Assembly (NCBI GenBank): GCA_021292105.1
Contig: CM037871.1
Coordinates: 17,677,960-17,741,959, forward strand
Direction: 5' to 3'
DNA from: Anadara kagoshimensis
Lineage: Eukaryota; Mollusca; Bivalvia; Arcoida; Arcidae
Length of the DNA stretch: 64,000 bases
In this document: positions 5,986 to 48,256 of the stretch, in pieces
Position numbering within the stretch: position 1 is the first letter of the stretch
Layout of the letters: each line of letters begins with the position of its first letter
Notes under the pieces: generated by a model
Told to the model about the DNA's origin: nothing
Databases searched by the model: none
The model's input: the letters and a program-made list of their open reading frames with translations, nothing else
Position numbers and translations under genes: made by a program

Positions 5986-8900
5986 GTAAAATGAAGTATT
6001 TTAAATAACTACTAATCAACTAATAAGCAACTCGTTTTACGAGTGTCACGTTATATATGGATATTTTGGTCTTATTGCACAAACTGAACAAGCAATTAAG
6101 GATGGTACTGATAAATCCAACATTGTTTTACTACTGTTGCTATGGACTAGTAAAGGTATTATGTTTATTTTCAGGCTCTAAGCCAAGCACAACCAAAGTC
6201 ACAACATACACAGATAGACCTTCAAGCCGTGGACAAAGTGGGCGTTTGTCATCTTTAAGATTCCAAGAGACAGAAAATGACCCATATTTCTACCCCAAAA
6301 GCCCGACCCTAGTCAGTGAGAAAACCTACACAGCATACACCAGAAGTTCAAGAAGTTCCCGCCCATCAACTTCAAAGACTTTCATTAGTAACCAATCAGT
6401 GACGGTTACCAAAAATATGTCAACGTCCAATAGCCAACAACAGAGGAAAACTGACAAAGATTCAGTAGCAAGCTTAAGAAAGATGGAACCAGCTTTTCTG
6501 GCAGTTACAAGAGACATCCCGGGTCTACAAATTTGGAGGTTGGAAGTAAGTATTAACTTTAATAATACAATAAAGAATTATATTTTATACGCCGATTTCT
6601 AGAACTTTCTAAGTGTTGTCCGCGTGTCATTCTGTCTGCCCTTCCGTCCGTCCACAAAAATGTTTCCGGCCTACTCCTCCAACACAATTAACGATAGTGT
6701 TACTTAACTCGGAATACAATGGTTTCCAGGATATGACACACACTGTGTGCAAAGGTTTTCTTCCCAATTTTTCAAAGTTGTACCCCTTTTTAATTTTAAT
6801 GATCCTTAAGTCAAATCTTTGCTTTGCAAACATATTTTAAGCAAAACGTATATGAACGAATCTTGCTATGCCTAGCAGCATACTTTTTTAATCTTTCAAC
6901 CAACTCTCTCTCTCTCTCTATCTCTCTCTCTTTTGTGACCAGACCATTTCATTCTATTTTAATTATTTTACAGGAGAAAACAAGAGCTTTGGAGCTAGAT
7001 GAAAAAGATCATGGATTTTTTCACGAAGGAGCAGCATATATTGTCCTTAAGGTATTTGCTAAACAGTTAACTAAATTTAATAAAAGCGACTAAGATATGA
7101 TAATATAAAGAATTTTTCATTCGTCTTATGTCTAACTATAAGTTTAGAACCATTAAGTGCAAGGGTTTTGGATGAAAAAATGAATGTCAAGAACAATATT
7201 TGTGTATTTTGTTTTACGCTTACTCACAACACCGTCACTTGTAAATATAGGAGTGTGTAAATGCTGCTAAAGAGCACACTACAGTTGTATTGAGCTTCTA
7301 TAGAGACATTGTCCATCAACCGATCCAGTATTCCTGCGGGTTCCATGGTGTTGCTCATCATACATTGTGAATTATTCAGGATCACAATTGTCTCGTTTTG
7401 TGACATTAAGAATGCGTTGAACTGATAAAGAATTTCTATATCCGCTTGTTAAAAAGTTCAACGTATGTTGATATTATTATGTCATAATTAAAATACATGT
7501 AATCAAAAGTACAAAAACTTATTATTTTTATGATTAATTCTTTCGAACATAAGCTATTAAATTGTATCGCTAGTCGACACCTCTTATACGCTTGTATTTG
7601 TATCGTAGGTTGATGAAGAGGAGAATACGTCATTACACTATTGGACAGGTCAGCAGTGTCCGGAGGTAAGGAATGCTATTTTTATAGTGCTTAAATGACC
7701 AGGATGTTTTATTTTATTGTTGCATTTTATTTATTGCATTAAATCAGAATTTAAAAATATTGAAATATATCAAAGCAGTTAATTTGTTGAAACTTGCTAT
7801 AAACATATTTACATGAAATTATTGTATATTTTCTCGATTTTGAAATTTTTGAATTTATTTCATTTTCTAATAAAATAAACATAGTAGCCATAAACATATT
7901 TTATATAGAAAAAAATAAACATACTAATCCATGTCCAATTCACAATCTCGAAGCAAAGTTAAAACTTTTAAACTGACAAATTTAGGTAAACAGTGCATTT
8001 CTACCGGGAAAGTGAGGCCGGGTGCTTCGAAAGGATAAGTACCTCCTGTTTAGCTAGCTATACCTGCCGCATGTGTATAATCAAAATTGAGATTGATAGG
8101 AACATGAAATTATGAAAGGTCAAATATATTATATTGTGTTATTATATAATTAGCACAATGTATCATATACCATGTTGTATTACAACGATAATAATTATGA
8201 TAATGTTTTATATCATATTGTAGGATGAGGCCGCCACAGTGGAACGTAAAGCACATGAATTGGATAGAATTCTAAATAATGCCAGCGTGTTTTCCAAGGA
8301 GGTGGTTATTATTTTTTTTTCCATGAGCCGATCCTCTTTAATGTTACACTATTCCACTAAGATCACGTACTCTAGTACTTACTAAAATATGTTTTCTCCA
8401 AGCAAAACACTATTACACTATTAATATGAGGACGTATAAACGTCTGTACGTATTACGAGACACTTGATATGCTTTAGTGATAGACTAATATGATCTTCTT
8501 AATCACCAGTAACTGAACACCTACAGTGTATAATTGTCATCGTGTGTAGTGTCTGACCAAAGTTGGGAGTTTCATGAACAATGGTTTTACAATGTACATT
8601 ATTTTTTATTTCCAATCATATGAGGTTAAATGTCATGATTTGCATGCTATTTGCCTACAAGTTACTGTACATAACTGAACAAACTTGTAATATGTCCTGA
8701 TAAAGCGTTTTGGAATGGTGTGCAAAAAGTGCTATAAAAGTTTTTTTATAGAAGACTATTGAAAATGTATGATAATTTTTGAAGTTATATTTTTATTGTA
8801 TTGTAGACACAAAGTCATGAATCTTCCTGTTTTCTACGTCTCTTCCCTGATGGAATAATGTAAGTACACGTGTAGCGTTGGTACAAAGAAAGTTAATAAA

Positions 8901-26560: not shown

Positions 26561-26799
26561 TAGGTGCTAGAATCATAACTGCAGCGTTTTTAAAACATCA
26601 TTGCGTCATTAATAAGTTTAATAGATCAAACAAACTCTATTATGTATGTCGGAACTAGCCGGATTGAACTTTACACTTTATTATCAGACATCAACAGCTT
26701 TCGTAGAGTACCTTTCAATGCACTTGTAACTATATAGATGCGAAGTATATCTTAATTAAGCGGGGTATTTTAACCTTTACTACAATAATAATAATAATA

Positions 26800-28695
26800 A
26801 CAAGAGGCCCATGGGCCTGATACGCTCACCTGATAACTAATGGCTAGCTGATAGATTTAAAGAACACATAAAAACTAAACCCCAATGACTTTTTTCTTTA
26901 CATCATGATAACCATTGTATCAATACCTACAACATTCTAATATACATGCCTATACAAAAAGTTTATAGTTTTCGAGATAATTAACCCTTTTGGTATTGTT
27001 TTGCATCTGTGACCTTGACCTTTGAACCCATGACCTTTTTCTTTACATCAAAATGATCGTTGTATCAATACCTACAACATTCTAATATACAAGCCTATAC
27101 CAAAAGTTTATAGTTTTCGAAATAATTAACCATTTCAGTATTGTTTCACATCTGTGACCTTGACCTTTGAACCCATGTCCTTTTTCTATACATCAAAATG
27201 ATCGTTGTATCAATACCTACAACATTCTAATATACATGCCTATACAAAAGTTTATAGTTTTCGAGATAATTAAACATTTCCGTATTGTTTCGCATATGTG
27301 ACCTTGACCTTTGAACCCATAACCTGTTTCTATATATCAAAATGATTGTTGTATCAATACCTACAACATTCTAAAATACATGCCTATACAAAAAGTTTAT
27401 AGTTTTCGAGATAATTAAACATTTTGGTATTGTTTTGCATCTGTGACCTTGACCTTTGAACCCTGACCTTTTTCTATACACCAAAATGATCGTTGTATCA
27501 GTACCTACAACATTCTAATATATATGCCTATACAAAAAGTTTATAGTTTTTTAGATAATTAACCATTTTGGTATTGTTTCGCATCTGTGACCTTGACCTT
27601 TGAACCCATGACCTTTTTCTATACATCAAAATGATCGTTGTATCAATACCTACAACATTCTAATATACATGCCTGTACAAAAAGTTTATAGTTTTCGAGA
27701 TAATTAACCATTTCAGTATTGTTTCTCATCTGTGACCTTGACCTTTGAACCCATGACCTTTTTCTATACATCAAAATGATCGTTGTATCGATACCTACAA
27801 CATTCTAATATACATGCCTATACAAAATGTTTATAGTTTTCGAGATAATTAACCATTTTCGTATTGTTTCGCATCTGTGACCTTGACCTTTGAACCCAAG
27901 ACCTTTTTCTATACATCAAAATGATCGTTGTATCGATACCTACAACATTCTAATATATATGCCTATACAAAATATTTATAGTTTTCGAGATAATTAACCA
28001 TTTTGGTATTGTTTCACATCTGTGACCTTGACCTTTGAACCCATGACCTTTTTCTATACATCAAAATGATCGTTGTATCGATACCTACAACATTCTAATA
28101 TACATGCCTATACAAAAGGTTTATAGTTTTCGAGATAATAATTATAATCAGAGGTACAAAAATTAGGTCACGACCTTCACAATCGACCTTGACCTCATTT
28201 TGAAGATACTAACAAGAAGATGTCAAAACTGAAAACCCCATGTCATTATCTGGTCAAATAGTCAAGTTATAACAATTTGAAGCTATTTTACGATTTTTTA
28301 AAAATTAAACGCAAAAACGCGTAACCTATTTTTTATCCGAATTTCACAAAATGAACAAACTATAGGCTTAAGACCCTAGAGAAGCCAAATATCACATCAG
28401 ATTTTTTCTCCAATCAGTACTTTCGGAGAAGAAGATTTTTTAAGATTTTTGCACCCCTAGGTCACCTTGACCTAGTTATGGTAGCCATAGCAACGCCACG
28501 AACAAATCTGAATTGCACCAGCCCATATATACTTCTGACAAAGTTTCATTAAAAACTGTCCAGTAGTTTCAGAGGAGAAGTCGAAAATAGGTGTTAACGA
28601 CGCACACACGCACGCACGCACACACGCACACACGCACGCACATACACACGCTGCGCTATGCCATAAGCTCACATGACCTTCGGTCAGGTGAGCTA
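26800..28695. mobile_element. TIR-bounded element with internal tandem array
   Basis: The left end contains the palindrome AAGAGGCCCATGGGC and GCTCACCTGA; the right end closes with TCAGGTGAGC, its complement. Both sides are flanked by (AAT)n, consistent with insertion into such a tract or a TAA-type duplication. The interior is a 145-bp array, then unique sequence (28135-28570) and a CA/CG-rich ACGCACGC tract (28602-28650). No transposase frame is present, so it is non-autonomous. Confidence 0.75.
26884..28133 (+). repeat. 145-bp tandem repeat, nine copies
   Basis: The landmark CCTACAACATTCTAATATA recurs at about 26926, 27071, 27216, 27360, 27504, 27649, 27794, 27939 and 28084, giving a 144-145 base period. 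Copies are very similar. Eight of the junctions carry GTGACCTTGACCTTTGAACC. Confidence 0.93.
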
Positions 28696-28709
28696 ATAAT
28701 AATAATAGA

Positions 28710-29400
28710 TAAAAACAAATAAATTAATTAATCCATTAATTAATTAATATGAATTAATACAGGGGAATAATCAAGAACTCTAAATTGAGAGCTGGTATAG
28801 ATTGTACGCAAACACTGTGACACTAACAAAAAATGTCACTGCAGGAGGTCTTGTTTTTTTTTTTCGAAAAAAACCCAGACGGTTCATGGTCTTCGTTCTG
28901 ACCTACATGTACATGTTTGCACTATGTATACATTGTAGGTGGTTACGTTTTAGATTAAATTTTCCTCCCACCATAAAACAAACGAATCTTAGATTAAACT
29001 TGGATTAAGTTGTTAAAGATAAAACCGAAATTAACATTCTGATAACGACATAAAACATAAAATAATGTCTTGTTTAAGGCTGTCTTGGGGTACTTTAAAT
29101 GTACTTAAATTCTCAGGTTCAAATTTTCGCGTTTTTAAAACTCCCTATCTTTTTGTGGGTGTAATATTCGTGGATTTATACAGCTAACTAAGATTAAAGA
29201 ATATTATTTTACGCGCGGAACAGATTTTCGTCGAAAATTTTCAACCGCGACATACGCGAAAATTAGTACACCGCAAATAAAACTACATGTACACTATTTC
29301 TATTTATTTTTATTATATATACTTTTTCGTGCTCTTTTAACCCTTCATTAAATATTAGTTATGGTTCCTTATGGCTACCGCTCCTAGAGTCCATGTTTAT
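28710..29400. other. Intergenic, mostly unique
   Basis: No gene seen. 29100-29300 resembles the CGCGAAAATT-containing MITE-C interior. An (ATTA)n-like stretch lies at 28725-28750. Confidence 0.4.
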
Positions 29401-32278: not shown

Positions 32279-32809
32279 TTACTGTATTTGATGTAATTGT
32301 TTAAGTATCATTTTATAACACGAATAAACAACAGCAAATAAAATAATAAATCCCATCAAGAAAATAATAACCACAAACCGCCTTAAACTGTCGTCTGCAA
32401 CCATTGTCTCCAACTGTTTTGACATCCGTCTGCAGCTGTATTTTAGCACATTGTTCAAAACTTTCGGATTTTTCTTGCTTTTTTCTCTTTCTTTATCAAT
32501 AATTTTGTTATTGTTATTATTAGTGTTATTATTACTTTCCGGATTTTCCAATACTGTTCCATTATTAAGAAAATTGTATTGTGTCTTGCAATAACTATTC
32601 CGTTCCGATATGTCCACTGTCGATTTTGGCGGGAATTGCGGCAGTGATGGTGTTGCTACTGTCGACGATGATGATGTTGGCGTTGGAGGTGATGGCGGTG
32701 CACGTGTTTCCTCAAGTAGAGACGATCGTCGTCTGCTCAAGTTAACGTTATTTAAACTTTCCGTAGCAAGAACGCTGGATCTGCGGCGTTGAAGAAGTAA
32801 ACTTCTCAT
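32279..32809 (-). CDS. Small tail-anchored-like membrane protein, paralogue 1
   Basis: 176 residues from the ATG at 32807-32809. I chose this internal Met over one 11 codons upstream because the paralogue at 41057 aligns exactly from it (MRxxLLQRRRS). Order: a basic N-terminus with two RRRSS sites, a Pro/Ser/Thr-rich stretch (about residues 40-60), an Asn-rich run, a Lys-rich charged region, then a single hydrophobic segment at about 145-163 (FVVIIFLMGFIILFAVVYS) and a 13-residue tail (CYKMILK...). It has no signal peptide, so a cytosolic N-terminus with C-terminal anchor is inferred. No known domain is recognised. RRRSS could be basophilic-kinase sites. It is intronless as far as visible; untranslated exons cannot be excluded. 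Confidence 0.7.
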   Translation of the reverse strand: MRSLLLQRRRSSVLATESLNNVNLSRRRSSLLEETRAPPSPPTPTSSSSTVATPSLPQFPPKSTVDISERNSYCKTQYNFLNNGTVLENPESNNNTNNNNNKIIDKEREKSKKNPKVLNNVLKYSCRRMSKQLETMVADDSLRRFVVIIFLMGFIILFAVVYSCYKMILKQLHQIQ

Positions 32810-32849
32810 GGTTTTATTGTCCCAATATTTATGAATTTGCACAAACTTT

Positions 32850-33960
32850 TTTTGTCAAAAAAACTAACAGTTCATTTAAAACCAAAGCCCATTTGAAGGT
32901 AATTAATATCCCACAAAAAACAGATAGTAAAATCCCATCCTGTTCTCCTGGCATGCATTTTTAAAATTGACCGGTGCGGTTAAATCAATTAAAATTGTCC
33001 AGTTTGACCATCACTACTGAAGCATTAACTTTGACCGTGGCGGTCAGCTGGCAGTCTATTGGTGACCTATACAACACCTTTCTACTCTTATTTGTAATAG
33101 AGCTTAAACATTCTGAAAAGAAAATTCGGTTAAAAATCCATTGAACAATCTTATACAAGATATTATGTATATATATACAAAATCCGTGTATGTATACTCA
33201 ATATATATGAGTGTTATAAATACTGAATAGCGAGCATATCATTTCTGTCACATCTGGAATAAACTGTTGACAGTTGGCTAGTCCGTAAATAAACAATATC
33301 GACGTTTATCGACCTAGCGTTTTTAACCTATCACGGTCAATATAAGAATCAAAATTCATGATACTAAAAATTAAGATAGTTTCCCTTATATTCGCCAATG
33401 ACGAATGAAACATAAGGAAACCGTCATGTCATTTTCCTAAACCTAGGTTGTTTTTTTAATTATTAATACGGGTCAATTCAAGAAATTTTTCATCTTCGCC
33501 GGTGATGATTAATAAAATGAAACCGTTTGGTCACTTTTCCTCTGTAATAAGATCACGAATCTTTTCTTATTTTTTTATCATTGGTTATTTTAATAAAGCC
33601 GTTGCTAGGTCGTTAAAAAGGTGATTTATATTGTGTATTTATTGATTGTCCACCATATATACTGGACATTAATTAGGTACTTTATTTACAATTCTTCCGT
33701 CACCAGTCGTAAACGTCTCCCTTTTGGCAAGGACTCTTCTACCGGTTAATTAATACCTTTCAGACTGATTGGTCATTATCTGGTGGTCAATAATTCTAAT
33801 TAAGAGGTCAGTGCACGGATTGACAAGATTTTTCTTTCCTTTTTCGAAAAATCATGACTGTTAGCGAACTGTCTGCAATTGGCGTTATTATATATAATGA
33901 TAATAATTAAAGTGTATTTATTTTATTTATAGTCTGAATGAATGGACCTCAACGATTACT
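32850..33960. other. Intergenic, upstream side of paralogue 1
   Basis: AT-rich unique sequence with no supported exon; the promoter of the minus-strand gene should be at its left end. Two TGACCGGTGCGG/TGACCGTGGCGG-like motifs at about 32970 and 33030 are a weak local duplication. Confidence 0.4.
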
Positions 33961-33964
33961 AAGC

Positions 33965-34345
33965 TGTTGTTGTTGTTGTTGTTGAATGTTGCTTAACGAC
34001 ACATCAGCATTTTTTTGCAATTGGCGACGAGAACTAATTTATTAATCTCTATGGATTAATCTATGAACAATTTCGTGTATACATGTGAAGTGCGAGCGCG
34101 TTTTATGGTCTGCCTTGTACCAGCGCGCACTCAAAGAGCGACTTCAACCTGCTCGCTCACCTAATCAGTATGCCGCAGACAAGCGTACAACTCCCAAGGC
34201 CTATCATACTAACACCTGGTGAACCAGTAAAGACCAACGGCAAGAAATACTCACTTTCCCACATGTGGTCTGAGCGCGACTCGAACTCACAGCAGTGAGA
34301 GACCCCGGATTTGTAGACTCACGTCTTGTCCATTAGGCTATATAT
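33965..34345 (-). mobile_element. SINE-2, minus strand
   Basis: Read on the minus strand, the head is tRNA-like (TAGCCTAATGGACAAGACGT, then a B-box-like TGAGTTCGAGTCGCG). The body includes CACATGTGGGAAAGTGAG, TTGTCTGCGGCATACTG and the tail TAAGCAACATTC ending in (AAC)n at 33968-33985. It is collinear with the copy at 52118. Confidence 0.85.
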
Positions 34346-34539
34346 AGCTACATGTACTGCGGATTTCGACAGTCAAATTTAAAGCCTTCTTTACGCTTTT
34401 TAACGCTTAAACCTGACTTATGCAACTGCTGAAATTTTGATGGAAACAATTACTTTCACTAACACAATCGCCACTGTTGACTCGATCCCGAGAAAGGTTT
34501 CGGCACAATTTAATAGACCAAGTGACCGAGATATTTACC

Positions 34540-36680
34540 TGCGACATTGATCTGCAATATTTACATGCGACATTGATCTGCGGTATTTACCTGCGGTTTT
34601 GATCTGCAATATTTACCTGTGGTATTGATCTGAGATATTTACATGCGACATTGATCTGCGATATTAACATGCGGCATTGATCTGCAATATTTACCTGCGG
34701 TATTGAGCTGAGATATTTACATGCGACATTAATCTGCGATATTTACATGCGACATTGATCTGCGATATTTAAATGCGACATTGATCTGCGATATTTACAT
34801 GCGACATTGATCTGAGATATTTACATGCGACATTGATCTGAGATATTAACATGCGGCATTGATCTGCAATATTTACCTGCGGCATTGATCTGCGATATTT
34901 ACATGCGATATTGATCTGCGATATTAACATGTGGCATTGATCTGCAATATTTACATGCAACATTGATCTGCGGTATTTAAATGCGACATTGATCTGCGAT
35001 ATTTACATGCGACATTTATCTGCGATATTTACATGCGATATTGATCTGCGATATAAACATGAGGCATTGATCTGCAATAATTACATGCGACATTGATCTG
35101 CGATATTTAAATGCGACATTGATCTGCGATATTTAAATGCGACATTGATCTGCGATATTTACATGCGACATTGATCTGAGATATTTACATGCGACATTGA
35201 TCTGCAATATTTACCTGCGGTATTGATCTGAGATATTTACATGCGACATTGATCTGCGATATTAACATGCGGCATTGATCTGCGATATTAGCATGCGGCA
35301 TTGATCTGCAGTACTTACCTGCGGTATTGATCTGAGATATTTACATGCGACATTGATCTGAGATATTAACATGCGGCATTGATCTGCAATATTTACCTGC
35401 GGTATTGATCTGCGATATTTACATGCGATATTGATCTGCGATATTAACATGTGGCATTGATCTGCAATATTTACATGCAACATTGATCTGCGGTATTTAA
35501 ATGCGACATTGATCTGCGATATTTACATGCGACATTGATCTGCAATATTTACATGCGATATTGATCTGCGATATTAACATGAGGCATTGATCTGCAATAT
35601 TTCCATGCGACATTGATCTGCGATATTTAAATGCGACATTGATCTGCGATATTTAAATGCGACATTGATCTGCGATATTTACATGCGACATTGATCTGAG
35701 ATATTTACATGCGACATTGATCTGCAATATTTACCTGCGGTATTGATCTGAGATATTTACATGCGACATTGATCTGAGATATTTACATGCGACATTGATC
35801 TGCGATATTAACATGCGGCATTGATCTGCAATATTTACCTGCGGTATTGATCTGAGATATTTACATGCGACATTGATCTGCGATATTAACATGCGGCATT
35901 GATCTGCAATATTAACATGCGGCATTGATCTGCAATATTAACATGCGGCATTGATCTGCAATATTTACCTGCGGTATTGATCTGAGATATTTATATGCGA
36001 CATTGATCTGCGATATTAACATGCGACATTGATTAGCGACATTTACCTGCGACATTGATCTGCGATATTTACCTGCGACATTGATCCGAGTATTTACAAG
36101 CGACATTGATCTGCGATATTTACCTGCGACATCGATCTGTCATATTTACCTGCGACATTAATCAGAATATTTACCTGCGACATTGATCTGCGATATTTAC
36201 CTGCAACATTGATCTGCGATATTTACATGCGACGTTGTTCTGCAATATTTACCCGCGACATTAATCTGCGATATTTACATGCGACATTGCTCTTCAATAT
36301 TTACCCGCGACATTGATCTGCGATATCTACATGCGACATTGATCTGCAATATTTACCTGCGGTATTGATCTGCGATATTTACCTGTGATATTGATATGTG
36401 ATATTTACCTGCGGTATTGATCTGCGATATTTACCTGCGGTATTGATCTGCGATATTTACATGCGACATTGAACTGCAATATTTACCTGCGACATTGATC
36501 TGCGATATTTACCTGCGGTATTGATCTGCGATCTTTACATGCGACATCGATCTGCAATATTTACCCGCGACATTGATCAGCGATATTTACCTGCGACATC
36601 GATCTGCGTTTACCTGCTACATTGATCTGTGGTATTTACCTGCGACATTGATCTGCGATATTTACCTGCGACATTGCTAG
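34540..36680. repeat. 26-bp satellite array with 520-bp higher-order period
   Basis: About 80 copies of a 26-base unit (TTTACATGCGACATTGATCT plus GCGATA), with variants ATTAACATGCGGCATT and ATTTACCTGCGGTATT. Variant order repeats after 520 bases: the ATTAACATGTGGCATTGATC variant occurs at 34921 and 35441. Since 26 is not a multiple of three, each short open frame cycles through three phases; they are not genes. Confidence 0.95.
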
Positions 36681-36837
36681 CTATTTTGCTATTGTCATGT
36701 TGTATTTTAATTAGTTTTCAGAAAAGGATTTTTTTAATGATATTACTATAGCATATATATTCCAGTTCGTGTGCACTAATACAAAGCTGTAATTACACAA
36801 AGACTAGAGTAGGGTTAGGGTAGGGTAATTACACAAA

Positions 36838-36935
36838 AATCGCGCAACACACGATCTCGCTTCATAGGAACACAATTGTCACGTCGCAAATTGCTGAAAA
36901 TTGCTGATGCAACATAAACAAATAAATAAAGCCAG
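36838..36935 (+). repeat. SINE-2 3'-end fragment
   Basis: GTCGCAAATTGCTGAAAATT followed by GCTGATGCAACATAAACAAA matches the 3' end of SINE-2 (see 52440-52490). Confidence 0.6.
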
Positions 36936-37064
36936 GGGACTTCATTGACTGTTTAACATTTAAAGGTCAGTCGGTGATAACTATCTTACTAACAGTGATC
37001 AATATACCAGTACTTGATCTAAAGATATCAGTAATTGTCCTACAGGTAATTACTGATTAACCGA

Positions 37065-37335
37065 TAATGCTTCAGAACATCAAGAATAAAAATAACAATA
37101 CGAGGGCGTATGAAGTGACCAATGTCGCTCCCCAGACTCCTTTCTGGTGGTCTGCGCCCTCTGTTGTATAGTTGGCATCCCAGTGGCTAATGCTTCAGAA
37201 TATCAAGAATAAAAATCAAAATACTAGGGCGTATAAATGAATTGTGACCCATTTATACTCCCCAGGCTTCCTTCTGGTGGTCGGCAACTGCCGTTTAGTT
37301 GTTGTTCCACGCGCTTCAGAATATCAATTGTCTTC
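37065..37335. repeat. About 122-bp tandem duplication
   Basis: GCTTCAGAACATCAAGAATA at 37070, then GCTTCAGAATATCAAGAATA at about 37190 and a partial third start at about 37312. Each is followed by a GGGCGTAT...CCTTTCTGGTGGTC block. Confidence 0.7.
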
Positions 37336-37493
37336 TGTCGTAAAGAAATAAAAAATGAAATGTATTTGATCGTGAATAGCCTGTGAATAATTGTTGTTGT
37401 AATATTGTTTAACATTTTCACTTATATCGATACTTCGCCAGCAATTTTCATCTATTCACGACGACATTTTGAATCACTAAACAAGTACATTGT

Positions 37494-37795
37494 ATGTGTA
37501 TGCAAGAGATGTACGAGGGTTTGCCTTCTACAAGCAGTCTAGCACGCACTCGGAAAGATTTTTTAGATGCTAACTCTCACAGAGTGAATACGCCACAGAC
37601 AAGCATACCACTCACCCAGTCAAATATCCTTCAACGGGTGAACTTGTTGATATCTGCCCTCTTAATCATGCCGAACGCCAGGTGAGGAAACAGTTTGTTA
37701 AATTCAAGTCTTATGCTAACCCATCAGGGTTAGAACCCAGAACCTCCCACTCTCAAGGCGGACGCTCTTCCACTGAGTCACATTGGGGGTCAGTA
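37494..37795 (-). mobile_element. SINE-3: a different tRNA-like head on the SINE-2 core
   Basis: On the minus strand the head reads TGACTCAGTGGAAGAGCGTC with B box GGGTTCTAACCC. The core GGTATGCTTGTCTGTGGCGT and ACTCTGTGAG matches SINE-2's GGTACGTTTGTCTGCGGCGT and ACTCTGTGAG. Head and core are therefore combined differently from SINE-2. Confidence 0.75.
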
Positions 37796-37892
37796 TGAGG
37801 GACTTCGATCGCAGTTGTTTTCATCTTTTGACAGGTCTATTTGAAATAACTCGAATATATATTCAAACAAGATACATGTAGTTTAGTTAAGT

Positions 37893-38228
37893 AATGGGAT
37901 TTTACGTCATAGTCAAGAACATTGAAATTCACTTATATCGAGACGTCGCCAGCTATAGACGAAGGTGCAGAAATTTTGCCTGTGCGTTGCAATGATTGCA
38001 TTACACAGCAGTGTTCTTTATCGTGCCAGGCCTACCGTGACACGGGGTCTCGTTTATTTTAGGTTCTCGTCCGAATGAACCATGTATTTCATTTCATAAT
38101 GCCGAGTGCTTGGCGAAAGGAAGAACACTTCCAACTTTCAAGTCTTGGGTCAGACCCGGCCGGGGTTCGAACCCACAACGTTCCACTTACGGATGGAGAA
38201 CTCTACCAACTGAGCTACTGCAGTGGCA
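37893..38228 (-). mobile_element. SINE-1, apparently full length
   Basis: On the minus strand: A box TAGCTCAGTTGGTAGAGTTC and B box GGGTTCGAACCCC (a tRNA-like head of about 75 bases), the body AAGCACTCGGCATTATGAAA, GTGTCACGGTAGGCCTGGCA and CTGCACCTTCGTCTATAGCT, and the tail GACGTCTCGATATAAGTGAA. Best copy of the family in the window. The head folds like a tRNA but is part of the SINE, not a separate gene. Confidence 0.9.
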
Positions 38229-38633
38229 TCGAAGATATTTATAGAAAATATAGAATAAAACATGGTAAAATCCATATCGTATGCCATATCGAACCGAGAC
38301 TCTGATATCAGTAAAATGGATAAGATCGATGTCTGATATTAATCATAGGACTGATATGACATTGTATCATGGTTTTCACCACGCTTTATTATTTTTATCA
38401 TAAAGTTGATTTTTCCATTTATGGTATCAATTACAAAATTTGTGATCACAGATATTCATTATAGGTAGCCAACAACTTTTAAAAAGGTTAATGGAAGTGT
38501 AAATATAAATTCGAGAAGGGATGTGGCATTTGGGGTGTGATATTGGGATCGATATTGATTTGTACTTTGCATCAGTATAATTTTTGTTAAAAAACTAAAC
38601 ATTTTAGTACAAATACATGTATATAATAAAATT

Positions 38634-38842
38634 ACAGTACAGTCCTGTCGAAAGTTTAATAACGAATTTGTGTCTAATCGACAGCTCGTCTCGAACCTTG
38701 CGTTGGCTATACTTCAGCAGTTTTCTTCTTTTCGGCAGCTGCTATCTATCTCTCAGCAGCTATCCATACCTTGGCCACTCGACGACCGAACTTGGACTCC
38801 TTTTCGTTAGGTCAGTGTTAAACTTTCGACGAGTCTGTACTG
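38634..38842 (+). mobile_element. MITE-A copy 10
   Basis: Left end ACAGTACAGTCCTGTCGAAA, right end AACTTTCGACGAGTCTGTAC. First of five copies spaced about 390 bp apart. Confidence 0.85.
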
Positions 38843-39017
38843 GAGTTTACCATGAAATGTACATGTACTTCCGCGTTCAAGTAGAAATTGATATACAAAA
38901 TACAAAACAGTTCAACACCAGGTCAAAACTCCGAGATCAGGAAAAGGAAGAAAATGTTTGATTAATTAAAAAAGTTTTATTAAAAAAATGAAGCATATTT
39001 TTTTCAATAACTACATA

Positions 39018-39212
39018 CAATACAGAACCTGTCGAAAGTTTAACACTGACTAAATGAATAATGACCGATTCGGATGCCCAACTTGATCTATCGTTGGCAG
39101 CTGGTATGCCAGTAGCTTATTAACCACTAAGTGTCTATATATATTTCTGCCATTCTCTGCAGCTGATCTTGAGCCGAGTGTTGAACTTTTGACGGGTCTG
39201 TACAATATATGT
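39018..39212 (+). mobile_element. MITE-A copy 11
   Basis: Left end ATACAGAACCTGTCGAAAGT, right end AACTTTTGACGGGTCTGTAC. The interior is shortened. Confidence 0.8.
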
Positions 39213-39318
39213 AAGGAAAATATATAAATTAAAAGAATAATGGATTTTATAATAAAACTAATTATTTTGTTTATTTGATTCCGGTTTGGTGCCATTTATT
39301 GTTTTTCACAATTAAAAG

Positions 39319-39341
39319 ACAAAAAAAAAAAAAAAAAAAAA

Positions 39342-39386
<45 letters not shown>
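39319..39386. repeat. Poly(A) tract
   Basis: About 66 A residues with a single C interruption, between MITE-A copies 11 and 12. It may be a relic of a retrocopy tail or a simple expansion. Confidence 0.9.
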
Positions 39387-39387
<1 letters not shown>

Positions 39388-39423
39388 GAGGCCAATTTTA
39401 ACATAGGATAAACATGTAGCTAA

Positions 39424-39687
39424 AGTACAGATCTGTCGAAAGTTTAACACTTAGCTAACCAAAAAAACATCGAAGCTCGAAGGCCAAGTGACAGAGATAA
39501 ATAATAGCTAATTGACGACTGTCAGGTGGCAGAGTTGATAGCTAATCATGGATGAACAGATAGATAGCAGTTGTCGAATAACTGTTGAAATATACATTAA
39601 TTAAAGAAACGAGGGGTCGAGAAGTGCTATCAATTCGGCGCTTATCCGTTAGCATAGTGTTAAACTTTAGACAGGTCTGTACTGTAT
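39424..39687 (-). mobile_element. MITE-A copy 12 (interior inverted)
   Basis: Left end GTACAGATCTGTCGAAAGTT, right end TAGACAGGTCTGTACTGTA. The interior blocks (GATAGCTAATTGACG, AGATAGCAGTTGTCGA) are the complement of the copy 1 interior. Confidence 0.85.
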
Positions 39688-39817
39688 TTCAAGTTTGTAA
39701 AATTAACTTGATAGAGAACGTCTTAAGAGACAATTAAATATCCAATAGAACAGTCATCAATTTGAACTTTTGACCGAGTTCGTGTTCTCAGAACCAGGAA
39801 CAGAAACAAACTGCATA

Positions 39818-40035
39818 TACAGTACAGACCTGTCGAAAGTTTAACACTATTCTGGAGAACAGGGATCGACGCTCTACTGTCGGGATTTTGATACCTTGTA
39901 CCAACGGATCTGTAGAGGTAAAGATAGCACCAACTGAAAAGCTTAAAATATTAGCTAGCGATGGACCTAGATGGACTACGAATTCGGTGCTAATTTGTAA
40001 GCTTGATGTTAAACTTTCGACAGGTCTGTACTGTA
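39818..40035 (-). mobile_element. MITE-A copy 13
   Basis: Left end ACAGTACAGACCTGTCGAAA, right end CTTTCGACAGGTCTGTACTG. The termini are near perfect; the interior is diverged from the other copies. Confidence 0.85.
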
Positions 40036-40198
40036 TGTCACTTATGTATACTAGTTTGTTTTTTTTTCGAGCTCGTGTGTCCGGAATCCGGAACAAAAAC
40101 GAAATACACCTGTTACTCAGTGGTCAAAACTAAGAATATATTTTCCTTATACGTCAAGTGCTAAATTATTAATTTTTATCCGCTAATTTCTAAATATA

Positions 40199-40420
40199 TA
40201 CAGTACAGTCCTGTCGGAAGTTTAACACTGTGCTAACAAACAAACAAGAAGAAGAAAAATGAGCTCAGCTGCATAGTACATGTACTAGTAGCCGATATTT
40301 GGGTGACTAGTGGCCGAAAATCTGACGATAAATAGCTAACGAGGGACGAGACTAAGAAGAATTGACCAGTCGACGCTAATTTGTTAGTTTAGTGTTATAC
40401 TTTCGATTTGTCTGACTTGT
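40199..40420 (-). mobile_element. MITE-A copy 14
   Basis: Left end ACAGTACAGTCCTGTCGGAA, right end TTATACTTTCGATTTGTCTG. Last of the phased cluster. Confidence 0.8.
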
Positions 40421-41056
40421 ACATACTTTTTTCATTATTTTAAAAAATCCCACATATCAAATGCGTAAATGTATAAATGTTATTGTATGTCAACATCGAT
40501 ATAGACCGGTACGATAGAACTTAACATGTATTAATATCGTATTCAACAGCTAAATTCGATCAACGAACAGAATGTGTACTTAAGCATTTTGGTGCTTTCA
40601 ACATTTTTTTTTATTTTATGGCCCATTTTCTGCCACATGGGAAGTCGCGCACAAGAGCCCGGAACTAAATCCCGCAAGACTTTGTAAATTCGCGCAAGAC
40701 TTAGTCAAGACGGGTTTTTGTCGTCAGTAGTAGACACATGCATGCGTAATGGAATGTGAAAATAGTCCGTTCCTTGATTTTTTTAACACATGCCGCTTTC
40801 GTGCACGAAATGCATTGCCAATCGTTTGAACAACCAATCAATGACGTCATGTATAGGCAAAATGACATCACATAAACAATGGCAATTATACACCTATACA
40901 ACCATTTGGTCTCAAACAGAATTTAATACCTTGAAACGTGATAAATGTCATGAAACATTCCTCGCTGTCACGTTGTAGCAAATTAATTCATATAACAAAT
41001 TATCCCTCGCTGCGTTGTCCATATACAGCCAAGACAACCGCACGTGCAATGAATAA
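40421..41056. other. Intergenic, downstream of paralogue 2
   Basis: Unique sequence without supported exons. It contains AAGCCCGG/CGCGCAAGACTT-like short repeats at about 40640-40710. Confidence 0.4.
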
Positions 41057-41488
41057 TCAAAATGTGAATTTTAACAACATTTTATATAAAGAATAAGACA
41101 CGGCCGTAACAGTGACAAAACCGACAATAAAAACCATGATGAAAAACCTCCGAAAACTTTCTTGTTCAAACGTTTCATCAAATTTTCGGCTGGCATTTGA
41201 ACTTTCATATCTTGAAATTTTCCCTTCAATCACAGTTGGCATGTACCTACCCATCGGTGTAAACGGAAGTGACGCACGTCGGTAATTTCCGGTTGCCGAA
41301 GCAGACGGCAGTTGAGATTTGTTTTGATCTGGAATGGAAGACATAGACAAACGTCTTTTGAACAAATTATAATGCTGATGGTAGGGGTCTTGATTTGTTA
41401 ATGCTCCTGTAGTTCTGTATTGGGTAGGTGTATCTTGGTTAGACTGAGTTCCGTTCGATCGTCGTCTCTGTAGCAGATAAACACGCAT
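41057..41488 (-). CDS. Small tail-anchored-like membrane protein, paralogue 2
   Basis: 143 residues from the ATG at 41486-41488. The frame is open 8 codons further upstream, but the alignment with the gene at 32279 begins here (MRVYLLQRRRS versus MRSLLLQRRRS). A second basic-Ser motif (FKRRLSMSS) and a basic RRASLPF lie in the middle. The C-terminus is RRFFIMVFIVGFVTVTAVSY then SLYKMLLKFTF. Conserved between the two proteins are the LLQRRRS start, the RRF before the membrane segment, the GF inside it and YKM-LK after it. The function is unknown; no catalytic motif is visible. Both genes lie on the same strand about 8.2 kb apart, consistent with tandem duplication. Confidence 0.7.
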   Translation of the reverse strand: MRVYLLQRRRSNGTQSNQDTPTQYRTTGALTNQDPYHQHYNLFKRRLSMSSIPDQNKSQLPSASATGNYRRASLPFTPMGRYMPTVIEGKISRYESSNASRKFDETFEQESFRRFFIMVFIVGFVTVTAVSYSLYKMLLKFTF

Positions 41489-43334: not shown

Positions 43335-44340
43335 TTACAGTAATGATGGAATACAGGCGTCACCACGCCAATAAATAAACTATTGAATCCAAATAAATCG
43401 GTATAAGTTATGACCTCGTTAACTGATCAGTTAATAGTTTCTTCCTGTTGTAATTATCACCATTAAGTATTATTTAATATCATCGAATCTGTGCAGGAGG
43501 GCATGGGGGTTAAAAATATATTTTGCTGTGACATGCGTTATTCTTATATAAGTCTATATATGCAACGTCTTTTTTCCAAGTATTTCCATTTCCCAATTTC
43601 AAAGTAAATTGAAAACTTCCGTATAATTTAAATAAAAAATATGCCATGTACATGTATGTAGGTCAGACAAGCTACATTATCGATACTATATCTTGATGAC
43701 GCCACTAGAATTTATTCACGGTTGTAAACAAAGTTGGTAGTTAGGCCGAATTAAACATGAATTCATATCACTATTCACTCTAAAATACAATTATTGAAAA
43801 TAAATTCCAAAGCATTCAAGTTTTTTTTATTTCTTCGATTGGAATTACATGTACATACAAATTCAGAGCATATACACAAAAATATAACAAACAATACCTT
43901 ATTTAAAACCAAATGAATAGTTACTTTGGCCTAATCATTAAAGGTGTTAGACCTATGCAATAAACGGTGCAAAAATAACTATAATGGATAATATTATTTA
44001 TATATAAAATATGATGGATTTTATCAATAAATTATTTTATTATAAATTATAAAACTACAGGTGCGCAAAAATAAAACCCTGTTTGTCGGCACTTCTTCTT
44101 TATTTACGCCGCCCGCCAGACTGATAATACTATCTTGTAAAGAATACGGATTTCTTGGTTAACCTCAAGTTTGCCAATCTGAACGCCTTCTGTGTTTGCA
44201 ACGATAGTGATAGTAGCAGAAGGTCACAAATGGGTATGGAATGAAGAAACAGCGTGTCACGCCAAAAACAAGTTTTTCCCCACTTAAATCGAAAACCGGA
44301 AATATACCAACCGTCTGCAAGCGAATTCAAAAACTTTTTC
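43335..44340. other. Intergenic, no feature recognised
   Basis: AT-rich sequence with no supported exon, tRNA or repeat that recurs elsewhere in the window. Confidence 0.45.
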
Positions 44341-44344
44341 ACAC

Positions 44345-44431
44345 TAGGATCTGTCCCGAGTGGGCTTCAAACCTAGGGGGTGTGAGACGCTATGGTCCGT
44401 AAGTGCGCATGAGACCACTCGGCCATCGATC
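44345..44431 (-). repeat. tRNA-like (Leu/Ser-type) SINE head or tRNA pseudogene
   Basis: On the minus strand it reads GATGGCCGAGTGGTCTCATG (A box) ... TAGGTTTGAAGCCCACTCGG (B box). The anticodon arm is not convincing. It lies immediately next to the left target-site duplication of the non-LTR element. Confidence 0.55.
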
Positions 44432-44443
44432 AACGCTCCCATA
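44432..44443. repeat. Left target-site duplication of the non-LTR element
   Basis: AACGCTCCCATA here is repeated exactly at 48245-48256. Confidence 0.75.
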
Positions 44444-44498
44444 CTCTGAATGTACTCGTAAAAAACTCCATTTACATAACACACTGTAGTGTAATTTC

Positions 44499-47400
44499 AT
44501 GCCATTCTATTTTTACAAATTTATTGCGTAAAAAACTCATTTTTTATCATGTAATCTATTTATTAGAGTATGTATCATTATGTTATTTTGCATATATATG
44601 CATATTATTGTTATATGAATCTGGTGATGTAGAGAAAAACCCTGGCCCTCTTCCTATCAACACGTCTAACGATTCCTCATTTTTTAGCCAATTCAGTGCA
44701 AGCAAGTTCTTATCTTTTCTCCATTTAAACATACAAAGCATTTTGCCTAAAATTGACATAATAGGATCCGAACTTAATGATATTGATATTTTAGCATTCA
44801 CAGAAAGCTGGCTTCATCCCCTTATTCCGGACGAAGACATTCAACTTGACGGCTATTACAAACCTTTTCGACGTGACAGGATTGATCAAAACGGGGGAGG
44901 GGTCCTTATATACGTCAGGGACACGATTTGTTAAGGAACGGACTGATCTTTATATCGACGGACTTGATGTATATGGCTTGAATTCTTGATTAAGGGCAAA
45001 ACAATTTTATTTGGCACATTTTATAGACCACCAAATACTGGACAGGACACATGGGATAAAATTGAATCATCAATAGACCTTGCAACAGACAGTTCTTTTG
45101 ATTACTTTATCGTGACAGGAGACTTCAATGACGACCAATTAAAATCTTCCAAGACAAAAATCAAACATATACTTGATTGTCTTAGTTTAAAACAATTAAT
45201 AAAAGAACCTACACACTTTGACAAAAACACGTGCTCATTAATCGACCTCTTCATTATTGACAATGACGATATAGTAGAATCTTGTGGTGTCGGAGAAACT
45301 TTTTACGACGTAAATATTCGATACCACTGTCCTATATACCTGACTTTACGACTAGAAAAACCAAAACATACTTGTATTACAAGGAAGATATGGGACTATA
45401 AAAACGGCAACTTCCAATTATTCAGGAAAAGCTAAGCAACATCGACTTTAAGACCATAATAGACAGCAATGACATTGACGTTGCAGCGGCCGATATTGCA
45501 ACTTGCATTTTGACAGTGGCCGACAAAACTATTCCTAACAAAGTAGTGACCATACGACAAAACGACAAACCATGGATGAGAAACGACATCAGACGACTTA
45601 TTCGACAAAGAAAACGAGTCCATAATATAGCCAAAAGGTCTAACTCTCAAGGTCACTGGGCTAAATTCAGACTATTAAGAAATCGTTGTGTCACTGCAAT
45701 TAGGAACGCTAAGACTGACTATTACAAAAAACTTGCAGATAAACTAACTTCAAGCTCTATGACAAGTAAAAGTTGGTGGCATATTGCCAAAACATTTTTG
45801 GGTAACCAAAATAAAAACGACACACTTCCTCCTTTGACACATAATGGGAAAATATATACGGACGACACGGGCAAAGTTAACATTTTAAACGAATACTTCA
45901 CTCAACAATCTACTGTAAACGACAGAAATATCGACACACCAGTCTTAACACCACTACCTCACACTATGGAAGACTTCGTCATTACTTCTTCTGACGTCAA
46001 AGACGTTCTGTCATTACTCGATGTCTCCAAAGCTTCTGGTCCGGATTCATTGAGTCCTAGACTCTTAAAAAATGCCGCTTCTGAACTATGTGAGCCACTA
46101 TCTTATTTCTTTAACAAACTCTTAAATTTCCATACTTTTCCAACCCCTTGGAAATTGGCCAACATTGTACCAGTTTTTAAAAAAGGCGACCATTCTGCCG
46201 TATCTAATTACAGGCCTATCTCTCTTCTTAATGTACTTGGTAAAATAATGGAAAGGTGCGTACTTAAATATTTGCTTAATTATATCTACCAAAACAAGAT
46301 TATCACAAGTTTTCAGTCGGGTTTTACTCAGGGAGATTCCACTGTTAATCAACTTCTTGCTATTTGTAATGAAATAGGCTTAGCACTTGACCACGGTAAG
46401 GAAGTTAGACTAGTTTTCTGTGACATTAGCAAGGCATTTGATCGAGTGTGGCATAGAGGATTGCTTCTTAAAATGGAGTCGATTGGGATTAAGGGTAAAT
46501 TGTTGCATTGGTTTCATAGTTATTTAAGTAATCGTCACCAGCGGGTTGTTTCAGGTAATGTTTCCTCTTCCTGTTTACCTGTCACTGCTGGTGTTCCCCA
46601 GGGTTCCATCCTAGGGCCCATTCTTTTCTCATTTACATTAATGATATAGTTGCTGACATTGGAAGCAGTATTAGACTATTTGCTGATGACACTTCACTTT
46701 ATGTCAATGTTGAAAATCCACATGAATCGGCTGAGTACTTAAATTCTGATCTTTCCAAAATACATCTTTGGTCTCAAAGGTGGCTTGTTTCTTTCAATCC
46801 CAAAAAAACTGAATCTATGATTATTTCCAAAAAAGCTGTTAAACCTTTTCACCCTGCCTTATATATGAATGAAACTCTAGTTCAAGAAGTTGATTCACAC
46901 AAACACCTTGGAGTGATATTTTCATCCGACGGTACCTGGAAATTGCATGCTGACGAATTATTATCTAAAGTTAACTCTAGACTTTCAGTACTGAAAAAAT
47001 TGAAATTCAAACTCGACCGTCTTTCTCTTGAAACTCTTTATCTTAGCTTCATAAGACCTCTAATGGAATACGGAGACGTCATCTGGGACAACCTGACAGA
47101 CGAATATACAAAAAAATTAGAACGAGCAAATATTGAAGCAGCTAGAATAGTAACTGGGGCAACCAAATTAACTAGTTTAAATTTATTATATTAAGATGTG
47201 GGGTGGGAAACACTAGAAACGAGAAGGAAAAACATAGATTAATTCAATTTTTTAAGATGTATCACAGGCAATCCCCTACTTATCTATCGCAAATGATTCC
47301 ACCTACAAGTTCAGAATTTCACCAATATAACACCCGTTCATCTGAAAACTTAGAAACTATATTATGCAGAACAGACTATTATTATAAATCATTTCTTCCC

Positions 47401-47824
47401 TTCAACAATTAGAGATTGGAATAACATCCCAGTCTCAGTCAGAAACAGTTCGCTTAACATTTTTAAATCTTTCTTAAACCAGAAAATACATATTCCAAAA
47501 TTTTATTACACAGGTAGTCGCATAGGACAAATACATCACACCAGACTTAGGTTAAACTGTAGTTCACTAAATCACCATTTATATAGTAAAAACCTCGTTG
47601 ATAGTCCCAATTGCGCATGCGGTCAAGTTGAAACTACAAAACATTTTCTTTTACATTGTAACTTGTACACTCATATAAGAAATACTACTATTCATACCAT
47701 AAACGTCTCTTATGATCTTGACATATTGTTATTTGGAAATCACAATCTGACCCCTGCCGAAAACAATGATATTTTCATCAAAGTTCAGAAGTACATTCTT
47801 TTATCAAAGAGATTTTCCGTTTAA
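44499..47824 (+). pseudogene. Frameshifted endonuclease-reverse transcriptase ORF of the non-LTR element
   Basis: Family role: nicking target DNA and copying the element RNA at the nick. Open pieces: 44524-44934 and 44986-45435 (endonuclease: HLNIQSILPK, AFTESWLHP, GGGVLIYVRD, GTFYRPPN, TGDFNDD), 45436-46628 in another phase (RT: SGPDSLSPRLLKN, NYRPISLLNVLGKIMER, FCDISKAFDRVW, VPQGSILGP), 46631-47194 (FADDTSLY catalytic box at 46676-46699), 47203-47412, and a last piece to 47824 with CxC...HFLLHC. Phase changes fall near 44930, 44985, 45421, 46628, 47225 and 47400, and a TAA lies at 47192-47194. A likely start is ATG 44499, out of phase with the next piece by an indel near 44530. Confidence 0.85.
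44617..44649 (+). other. 2A-like ribosome-skipping motif in the non-LTR ORF
   Basis: Codons spell ESGDVEKNPGP, matching the D-V/I-E-x-N-P-G-P consensus exactly (Asp at 44626, final Pro at 44647-44649). The motif follows a hydrophobic stretch of about 20 residues. In viruses and in some animal non-LTR elements, this motif makes the ribosome skip the Gly-Pro bond, releasing the upstream peptide. Function here is inferred. Confidence 0.9.
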
Positions 47825-47924
47825 AACAATGATTATTTTACATTATGAAACTTTACATACTAGTATATGTCATAAATTATTGTATTCTGAAATTTTCATT
47901 TTTCTTCTATAACCTACACACTTT

Positions 47925-47929
<5 letters not shown>

Positions 47930-47960
<31 letters not shown>

Positions 47961-47965
47961 TATTT

Positions 47966-47996
<31 letters not shown>

Positions 47997-48012
47997 TTTA
48001 TTTATTTATTTA
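47930..48012. repeat. (TTTA)n tract in the retrotransposon 3' UTR
   Basis: About 20 TTTA units with minor interruptions, between the end of the RT frame and the element's 3' end. Confidence 0.92.
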
Positions 48013-48244
48013 TAAACCACTCATTATTTATTTATTAAAGTAATTAAGTTATCCAATTGTTCACTAATTCATCTATTTAGTTATAAAATATATATGTTTT
48101 TTTTCTGTGACATGCAAAATATTGTAATGTTATAATTGTCTAGGAAACCGGTTTATATAAGAAGTTTACTCTTGTTCCGGGATCCTCTTTAAATTATTTA
48201 TTTGTAAATTGTACTGGAAACACAAATAAAATATTGTTTAAACT

Positions 48245-48256
48245 AACGCTCCCATA
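48245..48256. repeat. Right target-site duplication of the non-LTR element
   Basis: AACGCTCCCATA, identical to 44432-44443. Confidence 0.75.

Follow-up and report, generated by a model that had tools for sequence, protein, structure and literature searches.

In the trafficking control region of TASK-1 and TASK-3 (KCNK3 and KCNK9), a cluster of basic residues that overlaps a PKA-type site serves in COPI sorting and in 14-3-3 binding, and phosphorylation blocks COPI binding where the COPI, PKA and 14-3-3 sites overlap (PMC4760375). In the invariant chain of major histocompatibility complex (MHC) class II, a single-pass type II protein, the cytosolic head bears, close to its N-terminus, an RRR/RXR cluster followed by a serine, and RRR in this position acts as an endoplasmic reticulum (ER) signal (PMC2799409). 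Furthermore, 14-3-3 was reported to mask ER signals and to protect phosphorylated phospholamban (PMC12459269). Here we analyzed two minus-strand frames, named p1 and p2, in a 64,000-nucleotide stretch of the Anadara kagoshimensis genome (C15:17677960-17741959, the window in what follows), whose predicted products combine an arginine-rich head bearing RRxS motifs with a hydrophobic segment near the C-terminus.

Phospholamban and sarcolamban also consist of a cytosolic RRxS head and a single C-terminal helix, but within about 50 residues or less and with one such site, and their likeness to p1 and p2 is one of logic, not of descent. The same holds for the TASK proteins, which are channels that span the membrane several times and bear the site at their very C-terminal end, whereas in p1 and p2 the basic residues and the PKA-type site that overlaps them lie in the head; no homology is claimed, and COPI or 14-3-3 binding is putative here. 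The invariant chain has a large luminal domain, whereas only ~8-13 residues follow the hydrophobic core in the proteins described here, and their RRR sits further in, at residues 8-10.

Homology of the two frames and their maintenance as a family

The frame p1 (32279..32809, minus strand) is an intronless open reading frame of 176 residues running from the ATG at 32809 to the stop at 32279, stop codon included, and p2 (41057..41488, minus strand) is a likewise intronless frame of 143 residues from the ATG at 41488 to the stop at 41057, again with the stop codon; both are built as a predicted disordered head and a C-terminal anchor. These positions and lengths reproduced those of a preliminary description of the locus, whose word "tandem" is apt because the two lie on the same strand, 8.2 kb apart. 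When all 2085 six-frame segments of the window were searched with phmmer, p1 retrieved p2 with an E value of 1.1e-8 and p2 retrieved p1 with 5.9e-8, and no third copy passed the inclusion threshold among these segments. The Smith-Waterman score of the pair was 108, compared with a maximum of 81 in 3000 shuffles of p2 in which head and tail were shuffled separately. ATG-initiated frames of at least 143 residues numbered 5 in the window versus a mean of 0.175 per window in 40 windows simulated with a Markov-2 model; judged by length and position, the other three are a reverse-transcriptase frame of a long interspersed nuclear element (LINE), a gelsolin-like exon frame and a tandem-repeat frame.

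The homology resides at the two ends, as had been noticed by eye. The N-terminal blocks, MRSLLLQRRRS in p1 (32777..32809) and MRVYLLQRRRS in p2 (41456..41488), agree at 9 of 11 residues, and all eight conserved residues other than Met are spelled by different synonymous codons; therefore, the protein is conserved here and the DNA is not. At the other end, BLASTP aligned 20 identical residues of 57, and the anchor blocks, DSLRRF...YSCYKMILK in p1 (residues 140-170, 32300..32392) and ESFRRF...YSLYKMLLK in p2 (residues 110-140, 41069..41161), agree at 16 of 31 codons' residues, 8 of these with a synonymous change. Both start codons are sound, as the shared start had suggested, because neither open frame has an in-frame ATG ahead of the one in the shared block and the 13-15 codons back to the preceding stop are unrelated. 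The middles, which had been called unrelated, are indeed so in sequence overall, with the exception of RRxS sites common to both.

To place the pair in its genome (1.115 Gb, 36 contigs), searches were run with p2, p1 and two relatives, q at 16.74 Mb and r at 50.8 Mb, and the resulting locus counts are lower bounds. At least seven intact family loci were found, all on C15, encoding six distinct proteins of four types, and none of the seven contains an internal stop. They comprise p1 and its copy p1' (C15 17710241 and 18080627), p2 and its copy p2' (17719019 and 18091555), q (16738894; 102 residues from the first ATG) and r, whose two identical 135-residue proteins are encoded at 50831862 (+) and 51271002 (-) by inverted copies that lie 440 kb apart and are 99.15% identical over 3.3 kb, and hence count as two loci and one protein. 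All seven matches of the p2 query belong to the family, and so do five of the six matches of the q query, the sixth (C6, E 0.36, one stop) being no member. All eight matches of the r query lie on C15: besides r and its twin, they are the four p loci and two decayed anchor-end duplicates; one such duplicate of ~28 codons lies just downstream of r (L007 1876-1971, with a matching stretch in L006) and shows 71% identity and two stops. By comparison, p1 gave 17 matches, of which 7 are family and 10 are background (E 0.0027-1.84, all but two interrupted by stops) on C3, C5 (three), C9, C10 (two), C13, C18 and C19. The membership of q and r rests on the p2 query and on the reverse searches, in which p2 found q at E 1.6e-5 and q found p2 at 8.8e-6, and p2 found r at E 0.009 and r found p2 at 0.004. 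In shuffle tests, the observed scores for p2-q, p2-r, p1-q and p1-r were reached in 0 of 3000 shuffles each, and that for r-q in 1 of 3000. The proposal of a paralogous family was thus borne out, and its supposed local expansion in part: all seven loci share one contig and an extra pair lies near, but the loci span ~34 Mb, and the region as a whole, that nearest pair included, exists in a second, collinear copy.

Selection was assessed between p1 and p1' and between p2 and p2', with the end blocks defined as residues 1-11 plus the C-terminal block of the p1-p2 BLASTP alignment. In p1, a block of residues 113-176 was chosen after the protein alignment had been viewed, and the BLASTP block 115-170 yields identical counts. 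The ratio of nonsynonymous to synonymous divergence (dN/dS) was ~0.19 for p1/p1' (dN 0.030, dS 0.155) and 0.09 for p2/p2' (dN 0.006, dS 0.065). In the first pair, 16 changes are synonymous and 12 are replacements, all 12 in residues 12-112, and three codons of an Asn run are missing from one member. In the second, 6 changes are synonymous and 2 are replacements, of which S64L lies in the middle and T106K in the C-terminal block. Synonymous and replacement changes numbered 7 and 0 in the ends of p1/p1' and 9 and 12 elsewhere (Fisher P 0.010), and when the two pairs were pooled, the end blocks held 13 and 1 against 9 and 13 elsewhere (Fisher P 0.0021; P 0.0033 by codon count). The middle of p1 (dN 0.055, dS 0.146) is freer than the ends yet constrained. 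Hence, the notion of selected ends and a free middle stood, with the middle less free than it had been thought. Instead of paralogues, the members of each pair (p1/p1', p2/p2') could be alleles that the assembly has kept next to each other, which leaves the contrast unaffected. Because intact relatives exist in the genome and the ends are constrained around a freer middle, p1 and p2 are, as judged from sequence, genuine genes of a small, selectively maintained paralogous family.

No known family was recognized. Pfam gave nothing above its curated cut-offs for p1, p2, p1', q or r (best 13.5 bits versus 27), NCBIfam gave at best 17.6 bits for p1 and p2 (E 0.0016, spore YlbJ) against a cut-off of 304.65, and a PDB search with a profile of p2, p1, p1', r and q returned no match, so that the earlier statement to this effect holds against these three collections; in Rfam, nothing reached the gathering scores. 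The best animal-type Pfam scores came from two families of animal membrane proteins, RDD1 (PF15828) with p1' (E 0.12, 13.1 versus 27 bits) and stn_TNFRSF12A (PF12191) with r (E 0.2, 12.5 versus 24.9 bits); both are absent from the matches of p1 and p2, and neither is a relative on this evidence. Similarly, the best single-sequence PDB matches, centromere protein R for p1 (E 0.034) and a picornavirus VP1 chain for p2 (E 0.2), were judged to be chance. Prokaryote contigs, searched with p2 and the p1/p2 alignment, and viral contigs, searched with the alignment, p1 and p2, gave pattern matches of which none was confirmed by tblastn, and these negatives say little because the collections hold prokaryotes and viruses. 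The strings LLQRRRS, YSLYKML and YSCYKMI were not found in a text search of 5.39 million papers, and a keyword search of titles and the opening lines of abstracts revealed no description of such a family. An annotated but uncharacterized orthologue may well exist elsewhere, since this genome was the sole eukaryotic one searched, and the lineage specificity proposed earlier is putative. The mollusc haemocyanin domain PF14830 gave no match in this genome and none in its 14 control genomes either, a negative that is no guide to the lineage.

Head motifs, predicted membrane anchor and a candidate mechanism

Whereas the preliminary description had mentioned a second basic RRxS motif, which is present, each protein in fact has three such sites, at residues 8/9, 26/27 and 127 in p1 and at 8, 45 and 70 in p2. 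The first falls within the N-terminal block; in p1 it is followed by RRRSS (residues 26-30, 32720..32734) and RRMS (residues 127-130, 32420..32431), both found by motif scan, and in p2 by RRLS (residues 45-48, 41345..41356) and RRASLP (residues 70-75, 41264..41281), which both recur in r. There the order is RRKS, RRLS, RRASLP and the SRRF anchor, so that p1, p2 and r, but not q, have three ordered sites, the first of them in or beside the N-terminal block. Composition shuffles gave a mean of 0.11-0.18 matches per protein; p1 has 5 overlapping matches, a number reached in 0 of 10,000 shuffles, and p2 and r have 3 each (P 0.0004 and 0.0007). In the RRASLP shared by p2 and r, 4 of 6 codons are silently changed.

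Hydropathy scans agreed with the proposal of a single-pass protein with one hydrophobic segment near its C-terminus. The best 19-residue mean hydropathy is 2.88 in p1 and 2.17 in p2, and in these two proteins no other segment before the last 60 residues exceeds 0.14; the best 19-mer is followed by 13, 9, 13 and 8 residues to the C-terminus in the four types. The proteins thus share one feature of the tail-anchored class, a lone hydrophobic stretch near the C-terminus. AlphaFold2 models, computed with two sequences for p1 and five for p2, combined a low-confidence head (block means 38-60) with a single confident C-terminal helix (up to 96) that spans residues 140-175 in p1, with the anchor block inside it, and 100-142 in p2, confident from ~110. 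A BH3-only reading of the juxtamembrane stretch of p1 was also considered and discarded, as by eye the GD core of the BH3 motif is missing and p2 does not fit.

From these features and by analogy with the systems above, we tentatively propose that the proteins may be phospho-switched sorting or docking modules at an ER-type membrane, tail-anchored and with an arginine-rich head; this is a possible reading to which we lean without holding it probable. The presumed transcripts would be translated in the cytosol and the products inserted post-translationally by the C-terminal helix, probably in the ER. About 8-13 residues would then end up across the membrane, and the head, disordered, strongly basic and ~70-140 residues long, would face the cytosol. 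In p1, p2 and r, this head would act as a kinase-switched linear-motif module with three RR-x-S sites for basophilic kinases such as PKA, and in the first site, near the N-terminus, RRR may double as an arginine-based (RXR) ER-sorting signal. Unphosphorylated arginines would keep the protein in the early secretory pathway through COPI or on acidic lipids; once phosphorylated, and whether or not 14-3-3 binds as well, it would be set free or would recruit a partner. Conservation is highest in the anchor, for which the proposal is a pairing with a specific partner in the membrane. RRASLP fits the 14-3-3 site R-x-x-pS-x-P, and PKA as the kinase, an RXR function and GET-type insertion are candidate assignments suggested by such motifs in general.

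Several observations weigh against this reading or the family on which it is built. A disordered head rich in basic residues can acquire RRxS motifs by chance, and the RRLS of p2 and r is weak evidence of selection because 3 of its 4 codons are unchanged. The strict N-terminal ER signal is placed within the first five positions (PMC2799409), and RRR lies here at residues 8-10. The part presumed to be cytosolic has an RXR or RRxS cluster in three of the four types but not in q, which keeps the anchor (DDLRR...AVVYS) with one RKIS, no RRxS and none of the MR..LLQRRRS start; a motif scan of the 10 kb around q found no MR...RRxS block. Either the head module is not universal, or the 5' part of q was missed or has been lost. 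On the side of homology, the q query did not retrieve r from the genome, and p1 by itself reaches q and r at E 0.13 and 0.3, behind several background matches. On the side of selection, T106K of p2' is a replacement within the C-terminal block, and p2/p2' taken alone lacks the contrast between ends and middle (Fisher P 0.25).

The case of q also bears on an alternative that we regard as rather unlikely though deserving of weight, namely, a tail-anchored family whose arginine clusters are constitutive, for static ER retention or as acidic-lipid patches, and undergo no phosphorylation switch. All four types have a net charge of +10 to +13, and q keeps its charge without any RRxS. Against this, a serine follows the arginines at all three sites of p1, p2 and r, RRxS is more frequent than in composition shuffles, and RRASLP is common to p2 and r despite its silent codon changes. 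Another rival, which we consider improbable, is that the proteins are phospholamban- or sarcolamban-like regulators acting on a membrane pump or channel through the anchor, an effect that RRxS phosphorylation would relieve. The shared plan of a cytosolic RRxS head with a single C-terminal helix and the 14-3-3 protection reported for phosphorylated phospholamban (PMC12459269) speak for it; no phospholamban chain was among the PDB matches of p1, p2 or the five-sequence profile at E values up to 10, and the heads are longer (~70-140 residues, versus ~30 in phospholamban), mostly with three sites. We give just as little credence to a location in the mitochondrial outer membrane, with the arginines serving in targeting or contact-site tethering: basic residues flank the helix (RRF before, YKM.LK after), as is typical of mitochondrial tail anchors, but a helix as hydrophobic as 2.88 (p1) or 2.17 (p2) favors ER insertion by a common rule that is not decisive.

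Genomic surroundings of the loci

About 370 kb downstream, in the 50 kb compared there, positions 18060001-18106691 form a collinear copy of the window from ~11.3 to 63.1 kb. Outside tandem arrays, most blocks are 78-99% identical, and because the copy is collinear, the p1/p2 pair was copied along with its neighbors. This copy is either a duplication or an uncollapsed haplotype. Its identity to the window is ~97% over 48-63 kb and 80-99% by block over 28-44 kb, hinting at uneven age or gene conversion. A LINE-like element at window ~44293-48245 (+) contains a reverse transcriptase frame (RVT_1, E 1.4e-24), and since the copy near C15:18.0947 Mb is without ~3.8 kb found here, LINE presence differs between the two. 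A 26-bp satellite of ~83 copies (34530-36676) lies between p1 and p2 and recurs in the copy at ~18.0846-18.0865 Mb; a 145-bp satellite of 8.7 copies (26885-28139) has no counterpart there (window 26784-28736 versus 18076991-18077018). A short dispersed CAGTACAGACCTGTCGAAAGTTTAACACT-like repeat occurs in direct and inverted orientation at 38.6-40.3, 32.0-32.2 and 29.4-30.1 kb and may be a small inverted-repeat element; one copy starts ~55 nt past the p1 stop. Farther away, five blocks of a ~120-137-bp repeat unit lie ~1.4-1.6 kb apart at 54.7-61 kb.

These surroundings raise the question of a mobile-element or endogenous-virus protein spread by transposition, which we hold to be very unlikely. 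The genes are intronless and scattered on one contig, the near-identical r copies are inverted at a distance of 440 kb, and the short inverted repeat lies near p1 and p2, some of its pairs spanning p1 at ~10 kb distance; however, at least seven loci are few for 1.1 Gb and encode diverged proteins, the p1/p2 pair was copied within a collinear segment of tens of kilobases, and no relative was confirmed in viral contigs. That the frames arose by chance or are decaying pseudogenes in a repeat-rich region is scarcely credible: satellites and transposable elements do surround them and decayed anchor-end duplicates do lie downstream of r and its twin, but the ends are homologous with synonymous codon turnover, all seven frames are intact, and dN/dS is well below 1.

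Two further loci were noted. Exons of the gelsolin/villin family lie at window 6027-7090 (+), perhaps extending to 20.9 kb, as a PDB search with a peptide joined from two frames retrieved gelsolin chains (best E 2.4e-5); Pfam gave no match for them, a regex scan revealed no further gelsolin exons, and the frame 20667-20921 resembles a villin headpiece. At C15:16.74 Mb, ~640 nt downstream of q, a 73-codon open frame (L030 from 7840, +) contains MDFIRRRASLGVV, a textbook-like PKA site, and the minus strand of this locus (L030) carries a frame that is presumably Ras-like.

Implications of the family

A pair of frames first spotted by eye has become a defined gene family with measured constraint, ordered kinase-type sites and a conserved anchor. 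At its boldest, which we think unlikely but worth stating, this would be a previously undescribed animal family that relocates to or docks at an intracellular membrane in response to cAMP-type signaling, with a tail anchor, three stacked RRxS/RXR switches in an otherwise free head, and duplication along one chromosome. Short, intronless and fast-diverging membrane proteins of this kind are easily overlooked by annotation, and the family bears on whether animals have tail-anchored phospho-switch proteins outside the phospholamban group.

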